Shown here: one piece after another, positions 10,057-50,955 of the stretch
Position numbering within the stretch: position 1 is the stretch's first letter
Layout: each line of letters starts with the position of its first letter
NCBI RefSeq assembly: GCF_004297265.1
Contig: NZ_SCUT01000024.1
Span: forward strand, 62,001-126,000
Length of the DNA stretch: 64,000 nucleotides
From: Reyranella sp.
GTDB taxonomy: Bacteria; Pseudomonadota; Alphaproteobacteria; Reyranellales; Reyranellaceae
Direction of reading: 5' to 3'
Position numbers and translations under genes: made by a program
The notes under the pieces: generated by a model
The model's input: only the letters and a program-made list of their open reading frames with translations
The model's database searches: none
What the model was told of the DNA's origin: nothing

Positions 10057-10135
10057 CTCATTGGAGCGCGCCACTCCAGTGGCGCTCATGCCTTCATCGA
10101 CGAAGAGCGCCACTGGAGTGGCGCGCTCCAATGAG
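10057..10135. repeat. REPIN-like double palindrome, copy 1
   Basis: Two inverted 30-base arms (10057-10086 and 10106-10135) are separated by 19 bases. The core 24-mer of each arm begins GGAGC and contains an inner hairpin of 8 bp, GCGCCACT facing AGTGGCGC across CC. It lies between two convergent crotonase genes. Related copies are at 20851-20924 and 50881-50955. Confidence 0.85.
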
Positions 10136-16032: not shown

Positions 16033-17832
16033 GTGAGTGAAGTTACGTTTGCGGACCTCGGTCTGGCCGAGCCGCTGCTGCGTGCATTGAACGCGGCGAA
16101 TTACACGGTGCCGACGCCCATCCAGGCGCGCACGATTCCGGCCCTGCTGCAGGGTCGTGACGTGCTGGGCATCGCCCAGACCGGCACCGGCAAGACGGCG
16201 GCGTTCGCGCTGCCCGTGCTGCAGCATCTTTCCGAGTCGAAGGAGCGTGCGCAGCCCAAGAGCCCGCGCGCCCTCGTGCTGGCGCCGACCCGCGAGCTCG
16301 CGGTCCAGATCGCCCGCAGCTTCGACACCTACGGCCGCGGCCTCGGCCTGCGCCTCTGCACGGTCGTGGGTGGCCTGGGCTATGGCCGCCAGATCGAGAC
16401 CCTGTCGCGCGGCGTCGACATCCTGATCGCCACGCCGGGCCGCCTGCTCGACCTGGTCGAGCGTGGCAACGTGAAGCTCGGGCAGGTGACCTTCTTCGTC
16501 CTCGACGAAGCCGATCGCATGTTCGACATGGGCTTCGTCCGCGACGTGCGCCGCATCGCGGCGTCGGTTTCCAAGAATCGGCAGACCCTGCTGTTCTCGG
16601 CGACCATGCCGAACGACATCGCCAAGCTCGCCTCGGAGATCCTGAAGAACCCCGAGAAGGTCGAGATCGCGCCGCAGGGCCGCACGGTCGAGCGCATCGA
16701 CCAGCGCGTCTATTTCGTGAACGCCGCCAACAAGCGCACCCTGCTCAGCCATCTCCTGTCCGACGAGAGCCTCGAGCGGGTCATCGTCTTCACGCGCACC
16801 AAGCGCGGCGCCAACCGCGTCGCCGAAGCGCTGGAAGATCGCGGTGTGCGCTCGGAGGCGATCCACGGCAACAAGTCCCAGAACGCCCGGCAGAAGGCGC
16901 TCGACAACTTCGCCCGCGGCAAGGCGCGCGTGCTGGTCGCGACCGATCTCGCCTCGCGCGGCATCGACGTGCAGGGCGTGACCCACGTCATCAATTTCGA
17001 GCTGCCGGCCGACGCCGAGAGCTACGTCCACCGCATCGGCCGCACCGCGCGCGCCGGCACGTCGGGCATCGCGATCTCCTTCTGTGACGGCAGCGAGCGC
17101 GGCCAGCTCAAGGGCATCGAGCGTCTGACCAACCAGCGCATTCCGGTCGTGCCGACGCCGGCCAACGAGGACATGCCGCAGTTGCCGCCGCCCAAGGCAC
17201 GCGCCGAGGGTGACGATCGCGACGACCGTCGTGACGAGCGTCCGCGCGAGGGCCGTGGTGGCCCGCGCGGCGGCGGCCGGAATGGTGGCGGCGGTCGTCC
17301 CGGCGGGCATCGCTCGTTCGGCGACCGCCCGAACTACGACCAGTCGCGTGGTGATCGTGCGCCGGCGCAGGCCGACCCGCAGTTCCGCGGCGGCGACTAT
17401 CGCGATGCCCCGCAAGGCGGGCGTCCGCAGGGTGAGCGTTCTTACGGCGATCGTCCCCACGGCGATCGCCCCCAGCGCGACCGGCCTCATGGCGACCGTC
17501 CCTACGGCGACCGCCCGCGCGGCGAGCGTCCTCAGGGTGACCGTCCTCACGGCGACCGCCCCCATGGCGACCGGCCGCACCATGGCCGCCCGCAGGGTGA
17601 GCGCTCCTTCGGCGACCGTCCGCGCGGCGACCGCTTCGACCAAGCCCAGCGCGACCGCTCGCACGGCGATCGTCCGCACGGCGACCGCCCACAGGGTGAC
17701 CGCCCCTATGGCGACCGTCCTCAAGGTGAGCGTCCCTACGGCGATCGTCCGCAGGGCCCGCGTCCCCAGTGGAAGGGCCGTCGCTTTGGCGGCGGAGGCG
17801 GTGGTGGCCGCGGCCGGGGCCGCGCCGCCTAG
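16033..17832 (+). CDS. DEAD-box ATP-dependent RNA helicase (RhlE-like) with GDRP-repeat tail
   Basis: This is a 599-residue cytosolic RNA helicase for ribosome assembly or mRNA turnover. The core motifs are in order: Q motif (PIQARTIPALLQ), AQTGTGKT at residues 47-54, PTRELA, DEAD (VLDEADRMFDMGF) at about 157, SAT at about 188, ATDLASRGID and HRIGRTARAG near 333. From about residue 395 the protein is low complexity: an Arg/Gly/Asp-rich part, then about 20 copies of GDRP-type tetrads (GDRPHGDRPQ), ending in GGGGGGRGRG. Such RGG-like tails bind RNA and favour condensates. The start is GTG, with AAGGA upstream. The 3' end overlaps the stop of the next, convergent gene by four bases. Confidence 0.93.
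   Translation: MSEVTFADLGLAEPLLRALNAANYTVPTPIQARTIPALLQGRDVLGIAQTGTGKTAAFALPVLQHLSESKERAQPKSPRALVLAPTRELAVQIARSFDTYGRGLGLRLCTVVGGLGYGRQIETLSRGVDILIATPGRLLDLVERGNVKLGQVTFFVLDEADRMFDMGFVRDVRRIAASVSKNRQTLLFSATMPNDIAKLASEILKNPEKVEIAPQGRTVERIDQRVYFVNAANKRTLLSHLLSDESLERVIVFTRTKRGANRVAEALEDRGVRSEAIHGNKSQNARQKALDNFARGKARVLVATDLASRGIDVQGVTHVINFELPADAESYVHRIGRTARAGTSGIAISFCDGSERGQLKGIERLTNQRIPVVPTPANEDMPQLPPPKARAEGDDRDDRRDERPREGRGGPRGGGRNGGGGRPGGHRSFGDRPNYDQSRGDRAPAQADPQFRGGDYRDAPQGGRPQGERSYGDRPHGDRPQRDRPHGDRPYGDRPRGERPQGDRPHGDRPHGDRPHHGRPQGERSFGDRPRGDRFDQAQRDRSHGDRPHGDRPQGDRPYGDRPQGERPYGDRPQGPRPQWKGRRFGGGGGGGRGRGRAA
17440..17760 (+). repeat. Imperfect 12-15-base tandem repeat coding for GDRP units
   Basis: Within the helicase gene, units such as GGCGACCGTCCTCAC recur in frame with third-position variation between copies. 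They encode the GDR-P-H/Q/Y-G units, and there are about 20 tetrads between residues 470 and 577. Synonymous differences between units show selection on the protein and an older expansion, not a recent slippage array. Confidence 0.75.
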
Positions 17833-20850: not shown

Positions 20851-20924
20851 GGAGCGCGCAACTCCAGTTGCGCTCATATCTTGGCTACTGACGAAGCCTG
20901 AGCGCCACTGGAGTGGCGCGCTCC
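20851..20924. repeat. REPIN-like double palindrome, copy 2 (covarying left arm)
   Basis: Arms are 20851-20874 and 20901-20924, separated by 26 bases. The right arm is the consensus 24-mer in inverse orientation. The left arm differs by C-to-A and G-to-T at positions that pair with each other in the inner hairpin (GCGCAACT facing AGTTGCGC). The hairpin stays perfect while arm-to-arm pairing is lost at those two places. Confidence 0.85.
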
Positions 20925-48818: not shown

Positions 48819-50864
48819 ATGATCCCGGGTGAAATCTTCCCCAGCGCCGGCGAGCTCGAACTCAACAAGGGCCGCAACCCGATCACCATCGAGGTCGCCA
48901 ATACCGGCGACCGTCCGATCCAGGTCGGCAGCCACTATCATTTCTTCGAGACCAACGACGCGCTGAAGTTCGACCGCAAGCGCGCGAAAGGCATGCGGCT
49001 CGACATCGCCGCCGGCACCGCCGTGCGCTTCGAGCCCGGCCAGTCGCGCACCGTCCGGCTCACGCCCTACATGGGCGGGCGCGAGAGCCACGGCTTCCAG
49101 GGCAGGGTGGGCGGCAAGCTGGGACCCATCGCCAAGGTGGGACCGTCGAACGAAGGCCCGACGCGCATCTCGCGCTCGGCTTATGTCCACATGTTCGGTC
49201 CGACCGTCGGCGACAAGGTGCGGCTGGCCGATACCGACCTCTTCGTCGAGGTCGAGAAGGACCACACGATCTACGGCGAGGAGGTGAAATTCGGCGGCGG
49301 CAAGGTGATCCGTGACGGCATGGGCCAGAGCCAGAAGACGCGGGCGCAGGGCGCGGTCGACACCGTGATCACCAACGCCCTGATCGTCGACCACTGGGGA
49401 ATCGTGAAGGCCGATATCGGTCTCAAGGGCGGGGTCATCGTCGCCATCGGCAAGGCCGGCAATCCCGACGTCCAACCCGGAGTCGACATCGTCATCGGTC
49501 CGGGCACCGAGGCGATCGCGGCGGAGGGCAAGATCGTCACCGCGGGCGGCATCGACTGCCACATCCACTTCATCTGTCCGCAGCAGATCGACGACGCACT
49601 CTACAGCGGCGTCACGACCATGATGGGCGGTGGTACCGGCCCGGCGCATGGCACGCTGGCGACGACCGTGACGCCGGGACCCTGGCACATGGGCCGCATG
49701 CTGCAGGCCGCCGAAGGCCTCCCGATGAATCTCGGATTCTTCGGCAAGGGTAATACCAGCAAGCCCGCGGGCCTCAAGGAGCAGATCGAGGGCGGCGCCT
49801 GCGGGCTCAAGCTGCACGAGGACTGGGGCACCACCCCGGCCGCCATCGACAACTGCCTGAGCGTCGCCGACCGCTACGACGTGCAGGTCGCGATCCATAC
49901 GGACACGCTGAACGAGTCCGGCTTCGTCGAGACGACGCGCGCCGCCTTCAAGGGCCGCACCATCGCGACCTTCCATACCGAGGGCGCGGGTGGCGGCCAT
50001 GCGCCGGACATCATCCGCCTCGCGGGCGAGAAGAACGTCCTGCCGAGTTCGACCAACCCGACGATGCCCTACACGGTGAACACCGTGGACGAGCATCTCG
50101 ACATGCTCATGGTCTGCCATCATCTCGATGCCGCCATCCCCGAGGACGTGGCCTTCGCCGAGAGCCGCATCCGCAAGGAGACGATCGCGGCGGAAGACAT
50201 CCTCCACGACATGGGCGCTTTCTCCATGATGTCGTCCGACAGCCAGGCGATGGGCCGGGTCGGCGAGGTCGTGATCCGCACCTGGCAGACCGCCGACAAG
50301 ATGAAGAAGCAGCGCGGCCGCCTGAAGGAAGAGACCGGCGACAACGACAATTTCCGCGTGAAGCGCTACGTCGCCAAGTACACGATCAATCCCGCCATCA
50401 CCCACGGCATCGCCAAGCATGTCGGCTCGGTCGAGGTCGGCAAGCGTGCCGATCTCGTCATGTGGTCGCCGGCTTTCTTCGGCGCCAAACCCGACATGGT
50501 GCTGATCGGCGGCTCGATCGTCGCCGCTCCCATGGGCGATCCCAACGCCTCGATCCCGACGCCGCAGCCGATCCACTATCGGCCGATGTTCGGCGCCTTC
50601 GGCCGCAGCCTGGTGACCAGTCCGGTATTGTTCGTCTCCCAGGCCGCGATCACGAAGGGTGTTGCGAAGAAGTGGGGCCTGACCCGTTCGCTTCTGCCGG
50701 TGAAGGGCACGCGCAAGATCGGCAAGAAGAACATGATCCATAATTCGACCTGCCCGAAGATCGACGTCGATCCAGAGACTTACGAGGTGCGGGCCGACGG
50801 CGAACTGCTGACCTGCGAGCCCGCCACGTCGCTGCCGATGGCGCAACGCTACTTCCTGTTCTGA
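48819..50864 (+). CDS. ureBC: Urease beta-alpha fusion (UreB-UreC)
   Basis: This is a 681-residue chain holding beta (about residues 1-105; [45 protein letters not shown]) and alpha subunits (from about 120; [26 protein letters not shown]). No stop or plausible start separates them. Alpha contains the dinuclear nickel site: His248/His250 (HIHF), carbamylated Lys331 (GLKLHEDWG), [22 protein letters not shown] and SSDSQAMGR. It hydrolyses urea to ammonia and carbamate. UreA remains separate; most bacteria keep UreB and UreC separate, so this fusion is unusual. A REPIN-like repeat lies 17 bp after the stop. Confidence 0.95.
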
Positions 50865-50880
50865 TCATGATTCTTCGCTG

Positions 50881-50955
50881 GGAGCGCGCCACTCCAGTGG
50901 CGCTCATGTTCATCGGGTCGACGAGTGGAAGAGCGGCACTGGAGTGCCGCGCTCC
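50881..50955. repeat. REPIN-like double palindrome, copy 3 (covarying right arm)
   Basis: Arms are 50881-50904 and 50932-50955, separated by 27 bases. The left arm is the consensus 24-mer. The right arm has a compensating C-G to G-C exchange within the inner hairpin (GCGGCACT facing AGTGCCGC). It sits between ureBC and ureE, ending 6 bp before the ureE ATG. Confidence 0.85.

Follow-up and report, generated by a model that had tools for sequence, protein, structure and literature searches.

Three palindromic elements in a stretch of Reyranella sp. DNA (the window, 64,000 nucleotides) raise the question of what kind of repeat they are, which enzyme spread them and whether this enzyme is still encoded in the genome. 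An earlier note, made from the letters alone, had called them REPIN-like palindromes, each with two inverted copies of an arm that starts with GGAGC and folds into an 8-bp hairpin, and it had expected the REP-associated tyrosine transposase (RAYT) that recognises this hairpin elsewhere in the genome. REPINs are regarded as non-autonomous elements of two inverted REP hairpins. The arms of this Reyranella-group alphaproteobacterium constitute a REP/REPIN population. Very probably, these REPINs were spread by a RAYT whose gene was later lost, leaving a REPIN as a scar, and the population persists. The loss of the RAYT with its scar, the subtype-matched stems and the GGAGC foot of the hairpin are new here.

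The three elements and the genome-wide population

The three elements and all six arms were found where the note had placed them:

10063..10129: REPIN 1, 67 bp, two identical inverted arms with a 17-nt spacer
10063..10087, + strand: left REP arm of REPIN 1, 0 mismatches
10105..10129, - strand: right REP arm of REPIN 1, 0 mismatches
10058..10062, + strand: outer flank TCATT of REPIN 1 (TCA adjoins the head)
20851..20924: REPIN 2, 74 bp, flanked by a DUF423 gene and a convergent CinA-like gene
20851..20875, + strand: left REP arm of REPIN 2, 2 mismatches, the compensating C10A/G19T
20900..20924, - strand: right REP arm of REPIN 2, 0 mismatches
50881..50955: REPIN 3, 75 bp, flanked by a fused urease beta/alpha gene and, in the same direction, ureE
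50881..50905, + strand: left REP arm of REPIN 3, left flank CTG, not TCA
50931..50955, - strand: right REP arm of REPIN 3, 2 mismatches, the compensating C9G/G20C

Each arm is 25 nt long and consists of the GGAGC head, an 8-bp hairpin with a CC loop and a final TC. The hairpin of the left arm of REPIN 1 reads GCGCCACT-CC-AGTGGCGC. That four of the six arms are identical was borne out, and both double changes are as the note described them. The arm pattern had no match in 100 dinucleotide shuffles of the window. The TCATT flank of REPIN 1 is mirrored as AATGA at 10130-10134, while REPIN 3 is without an outer TCA. REPIN 1 has two convergent enoyl-CoA hydratase-like genes as neighbours, one on each side, and the relative G017 carries the same REPIN. 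In several other relatives (L292-L301), this spot holds unrelated palindromic elements, a pattern that would suit a preferred landing site or a terminator. All element ends are approximate, since the intergenic regions of relatives differ by more than the element; precise empty sites were rejected as markers of the ends for this reason.

Across all 66 contigs of the genome (6.02 Mb, completeness 100), 190 arms were detected at up to 3 mismatches and none with a reversed-pattern control, so that the genome search proposed in the note did yield many other copies. Further counts were made in tiles of 2.09 Mb, which were chosen partly for listed sites, are not a random sample and contain 124 of the 190 arms. 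With up to 4 mismatches allowed, the tiles comprise 128 arms, 69 of them exact copies. The arms form 62 heads-out doublets (one with an arm of 5-6 mismatches), and no same-direction or tails-out doublet occurs among the tile arms of up to 4 mismatches. Only five such arms are unpaired, four of which belong to two fused palindromes. Weak matches with 5-6 mismatches (n=26, of which 19 overlap a stronger arm) were left out, except for the one counted in a doublet. If arms outside the tiles pair like those within, the genome carries about 95 doublets. The doublet lengths are bimodal with 53-67 bp (30 doublets) and 70-76 bp (32). Head and stem are near-invariant and the two letters after the hairpin vary. 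According to a crude gene caller, 52 of the 62 doublets lie outside called genes, seven cross a gene edge and three are inside.

The doublet architecture and the high copy number support the REPIN assignment, and the REP identity is supported by every test run except that for a resident RAYT. As far as the available parts of the paper by Bertels and Rainey (2011, PMC3116915) go, the elements are similar to Pseudomonas REPINs, with inverted REP doublets as the replicative unit, a spacer less conserved than the REPs and specific RAYTs associated with them. Singlets are common there but rare in this genome. A second palindromic family around CTCCCCATT..AATGGGGAG was observed in the tiles (2.09 Mb) with 24 and 9 copies of two core forms; it is not present in the window.

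The missing transposase and its former locus

No RAYT was found in the genome, neither with Pfam PF01797 (Y1_Tnp; 0 matches) nor with a genus profile of 15 relatives' RAYTs (0 matches even at E<=10). Both searches were positive in many relatives; Y1_Tnp matched in 40 of 73 family genomes, although some of these matches are other Y1 types. The expectation of a RAYT elsewhere in the genome was rejected on these two negative searches, and the RAYT locus itself is a bare REPIN. The cognate RAYT of these REPINs is thus found in relatives and not in the same genome.

It is improbable that the gene is still present and merely missing from the draft assembly. The genome is split into 66 contigs, RAYTs have repeats on both sides and, in other drafts, several of them lie near contig ends, all of which would make such a gap plausible. 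Against this stand the completeness of 100, the negative profile search at E<=10 and the fact that the orthologous RAYT locus was assembled through with only a REPIN in it.

The relatives' proteins are RAYTs by several measures. The two scanned against NCBIfam REP_Tyr_transpos scored 94 and 87.4 (cut-off 80), and Y1_Tnp matched all 15. The 15 proteins contain the motifs HVH (HIH in one) and Y..N[PA/P] (NA in one), and in the PDB the RAYT profile matches the TnpA-REP 4er8 best. They resemble the TnpA-REP subclasses of Quentin (2018, PMC6006769, in the part available) in their HUH and Y---NP motifs and in that each RAYT has its own REP family. Exact arms flank the RAYT in L031, L061 and L068. 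The proposed association of a RAYT gene with the same repeat therefore holds in relatives but not in this genome, and recognition of the hairpin by a RAYT, as claimed in the note, is inferred from these flanked genes.

A tagged hairpin was detected within 400 nt of 14 out of 30 distinct RAYTs and was not detected at this distance for the other 16; one of the 14, L070, is truncated. Where a hairpin was detected, RAYTs with a YWD motif had a GCGCCACT-type stem in 8/8 cases and those with YFD in 0/5. The stems near YFD RAYTs were GGACCT, GGGCGTC, GGGCCT and GGAGCT. The hairpin stem follows the RAYT subtype (Fisher P=0.002 with L065 left out, YFD 0/4). The residue aligned with E. coli Q95 (numbering from the available part of PMC6006769, mapped by eye via the PDB match) is Gln in 9/9 YWD proteins and in 1/20 YFD proteins (L077). 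The 20 YFD proteins group together in a midpoint-rooted tree judged by eye, in which L061 was read as YWD; its motif is WQDDYWDT and an earlier YFD also occurs in its sequence.

This match between RAYT subtype and hairpin sequence in relatives also speaks against spread of the repeats in trans by another transposase. Such an enzyme could account for copies that are homogeneous (69/128 exact) in a genome in which a RAYT was not detected, yet it is considered very unlikely.

Spread by a RAYT is the preferred reading, and the locus at which its gene would have resided could be identified. The flanks of the RAYT in G045 map to adjacent stretches of contig C40 of this genome with only a REPIN between them. 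The spacer of this REPIN starts with TTCTC, as does the spacer of the REPIN that precedes the RAYT in G045. A RAYT stands at this place in the outgroup G016, and a partial alignment of G017, at a contig end, runs into one as well. In G031 there is just a REPIN, in G043 a fused palindrome and in G015 neither, and other sequence was found in G035, G027, G025, G008, G029 and also G034. On a tree of 13 genomes (6,394 columns) with G016 (3,286 columns) taken as outgroup, one ancestral RAYT with several losses fits the locus best; three independent gains at one locus are possible. Most of the assemblies compared are drafts.

In the proposed course of events, a RAYT (TnpA-REP, a single-strand HUH/Y1 nuclease) would have spread the REPINs by reading each arm as GGAGC head plus hairpin. 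It would recognise and cut this very hairpin. The gene would since have been lost in this lineage, the simplest route being a deletion between the REP arms that flank it as direct repeats, so that its upstream REPIN would have been left as a scar and a population of some 95 doublets would persist without the enzyme. The loss would be a recent one. In E. coli, REPtrons were lost in many strains according to the available part of PMC3733652.

The timing is suggested by REPIN 2. Among 29 relatives' loci fetched for its spot, 9 were without an anchor, 3 had gaps of over 600 nt and 17 could be aligned. REPIN 2 was absent from the orthologous spot in all 17, and no arms were found at the spot in any of the 29 loci. 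Consequently, copies probably spread once this lineage had separated, and the loss of the RAYT probably came after that.

The number of arms in 65 genus genomes was higher with a RAYT than without (medians 42, n=32, and 19, n=33; one-sided P=0.017), in a test that ignores relatedness, counts G053 (other Y1 type) and G034 (32-residue fragment) as RAYT-negative and takes the RAYT status of G046-G064 from Pfam alone. Given the fact that many arms also occur in genomes without a detected RAYT, such as G006 (213), G031 (84) and G008 (62), the REP number tracks RAYT presence only weakly, and a long persistence without the enzyme, or another enzyme, is possible. Species with and without a detected RAYT in this one genus share orthologous REPINs and an identifiable scar at the RAYT locus. 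It is therefore directly testable here whether REPINs need a RAYT for persistence and whether the host benefits from them.

As a separate observation, the apparent start codon of the G045 RAYT (L350) falls within the outer flank (GCTCC-AATGA) of the REPIN ahead of it, and this REPIN may thus affect translation of the RAYT.

Foot and flanks of the hairpin

The available text on the GTAG REP superfamily (Di Nocera 2013, PMC3733652) describes short tagged hairpins with stems of mostly 6-9 bp and dimers, which resemble the arms found here, and gives GTGG as tag in most Opitutus terrae elements. The superfamily's tag GT[AG]G at the hairpin foot is not present in the arms. The invariant part is GGAGC, and the slot of GT[AG] is mostly ATT-like or other in this genome: GT[AG] before the head was found in 0/128 arms, which, together with the RAYT not detected, also differs from what the accessible sections report for Pseudomonas REPINs (PMC3116915).

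The foot was further studied in a wider set, namely the best 80 of at least 542 RAYT-profile matches in named genomes from many phyla, to which all counts in this paragraph refer. The GGAG tag alone gave a modest contrast (48/78 loci near and 20/59 far from the RAYT), and the test of GGAGC plus stem was used for this reason. A perfect stem of 7 bp or more came directly after GGAGC in 124/302 cases within 400 nt of RAYTs, compared to 32/576 in a control more than 1,200 nt away and to 23/4067 near RAYTs when the same letters stood in another order. Hairpins with GGAGC flank this RAYT clade in 46/80 loci across phyla, and the 58 distinct ones near RAYTs all start with GC. The letters before GGAG near RAYTs were CTG or CCG in 65/132 cases and GT[AG] in 2/132; the slot is thus often CTG or CCG near the RAYTs of other phyla, unlike in the GTAG superfamily.

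In the part of Nunvar (2010, PMC2817692) that could be consulted, a table lists several Pseudomonas and Xanthomonas REPs that read GTAGGAGC or GTGGGAGC. They contain GGAGC, and the GGAGC-foot REP is hence a known kind of REP that has drifted, or a sister form of it, rather than something new in kind. The automatic REP search in PMC6006769 required GTAG or GTGG, as stated in its available part. Words starting with 'ggag' did not occur in the available portions of PMC2817692, PMC3733652, PMC6006769 and PMC8266576, a search that GGAG inside longer strings may escape. No open-licence paper was found by a word-start search for GGAGC with REP sequence, transposase and palindromes, and a literature search for Reyranella and repetitive extragenic palindromic sequences returned no related paper.

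The flanks of the arms have a preferred word as well. In the tiles, TCA is located 5 nt before the head in 91/128 arms, compared to 0 to 4 arms at other upstream offsets. It starts 0-2 nt after the hairpin in 100/128 arms and is present on both sides in 75. A further rise is seen 6-8 nt past the hairpin, with 13, 10 and 8 of 128 arms. In the other family genomes it was weaker with 30 left, 44 right and 19 on both sides among 78 distinct arms; TCA as a general feature was therefore rejected, and it is claimed for the population of this genome only. TnpA-REP cleaves at CT or CA, at tag-related sites 5' or 3' of the hairpin (Corneloup 2021, PMC8266576, in the part available). By analogy, the TCA words beside the arm are candidate cleavage sites, that is, predicted ones.

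These features could be combined in a reading that is doubtful at present: the RAYT clade, found in many phyla, would read a two-part address, in which the foot of GGAGC plus GC is constant and a variable mid-stem is matched to the RAYT subtype (WQ..YWD or W...YFD), TCA would set the cut in this group, and the hairpins would have been domesticated by the host after the loss of the RAYT. If true, REPIN populations would outlive their enzyme as domesticated parts used at gene ends. The subtype-stem match and the GGAGC foot offer a route to RAYT-REP recognition outside the best-studied GTAG systems.

Conservation of the arms and possible host use

The note had taken the single REP hairpin as the conserved unit. 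In the tiles, pair 10-19 is C-G in 112/128 arms and A-T in 16/128, without any single change. Pair 9-20 carries a double change in 1/128 arms, which is the right arm of REPIN 3, and a single change in one arm. Pair 13-16, next to the loop, is broken in 6 arms. The hairpin is a perfect 8-bp one in 111/124 doublet arms. The compensating changes are real, yet of about two kinds, namely one subfamily (C10A/G19T) and one singleton (C9G/G20C). Covariation within the genome as a series of many independent events was set aside accordingly, and the covariation check proposed in the note stood as to the missing single changes at 10-19 but comprised few independent events.

Unlike arms occur in 19 tile doublets, in 10 of which both hairpins are perfect. 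One arm is variant in 12 doublets and both in 2, with 1.0 expected for both; the variant arms are distributed among doublets as if independent. At C3:134705, this genome and five relatives share one combination of unlike arms, with GCGCCACT on the left and GCGCAACT on the right. Folded alone as DNA, the three whole elements yielded -45, -33.3 and -34.1 kcal/mol and one arm -8.5 kcal/mol, and the best fold of each whole element was a long arm-to-arm hairpin, even with unlike arms. Hence, the pairing-preserving changes and the variant arms, distributed as if independent, support the single arm as a unit of conservation, with the preferred long fold as a caveat to the note's reading.

Compared to its orthologues (8 pairs, four loci), this genome differs at 7/400 arm and 51/187 spacer positions. 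At C3:134705, differences in 15 pairs amount to 15/750 arm and 125/395 spacer positions. The arms are thus more conserved than the spacer, with exceptions. C40 in G031 has the reverse trend (arm 4/50, spacer 1/14 changes), and C3:139053, which was left out of these counts, is a one-arm remnant in G031 and a GGGGC-headed form in G045. The sharp arms may be due to selection acting on the hairpin, to gene conversion or to a recent loss of the RAYT.

If selection were the cause, the palindromes might, whatever their mobile origin, now be mainly host elements, such as factor-dependent bidirectional terminators or stabilisers of mRNA ends. This reading is rather unlikely. One argument for it is position: convergent genes flank 32/52 intergenic REPINs in the tiles, compared to 156/778 intergenic regions of at least 60 nt (Fisher P=5e-10, with a crude gene caller that misplaced REPIN 2 as tandem). 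The low number of arm changes relative to the spacers, also where the relative is without a RAYT, fits as well. However, convergent-gene spots may simply tolerate insertion best and gene conversion among copies would yield the same pattern. Arms decay at C40 and C3:139053 in G031 and in the fused palindrome of G043, and the unique copy at the site of REPIN 2 points to spread. No intrinsic-terminator-like site was found at any of the three window elements; one such site is located upstream of REPIN 3.

The REPIN at C3:134705 is patchy on the tree, being present in G025, G008, G045, G015 and G017 and absent from G031, G029, G035 and G043. As its empty alleles are alike, the REPIN may have been exchanged between species or cleanly lost more than once. 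Two further observations were made in the window. At 49311-49596 (- strand), the Rfam family 5_ureB_sRNA (RF02514) matches with 114.9 bits antisense in the fused urease beta/alpha gene, a match that may reflect only conserved coding sequence. At 17357-17799, direct repeats with 15-nt spacing occur in 17 overlapping copies within long open frames.
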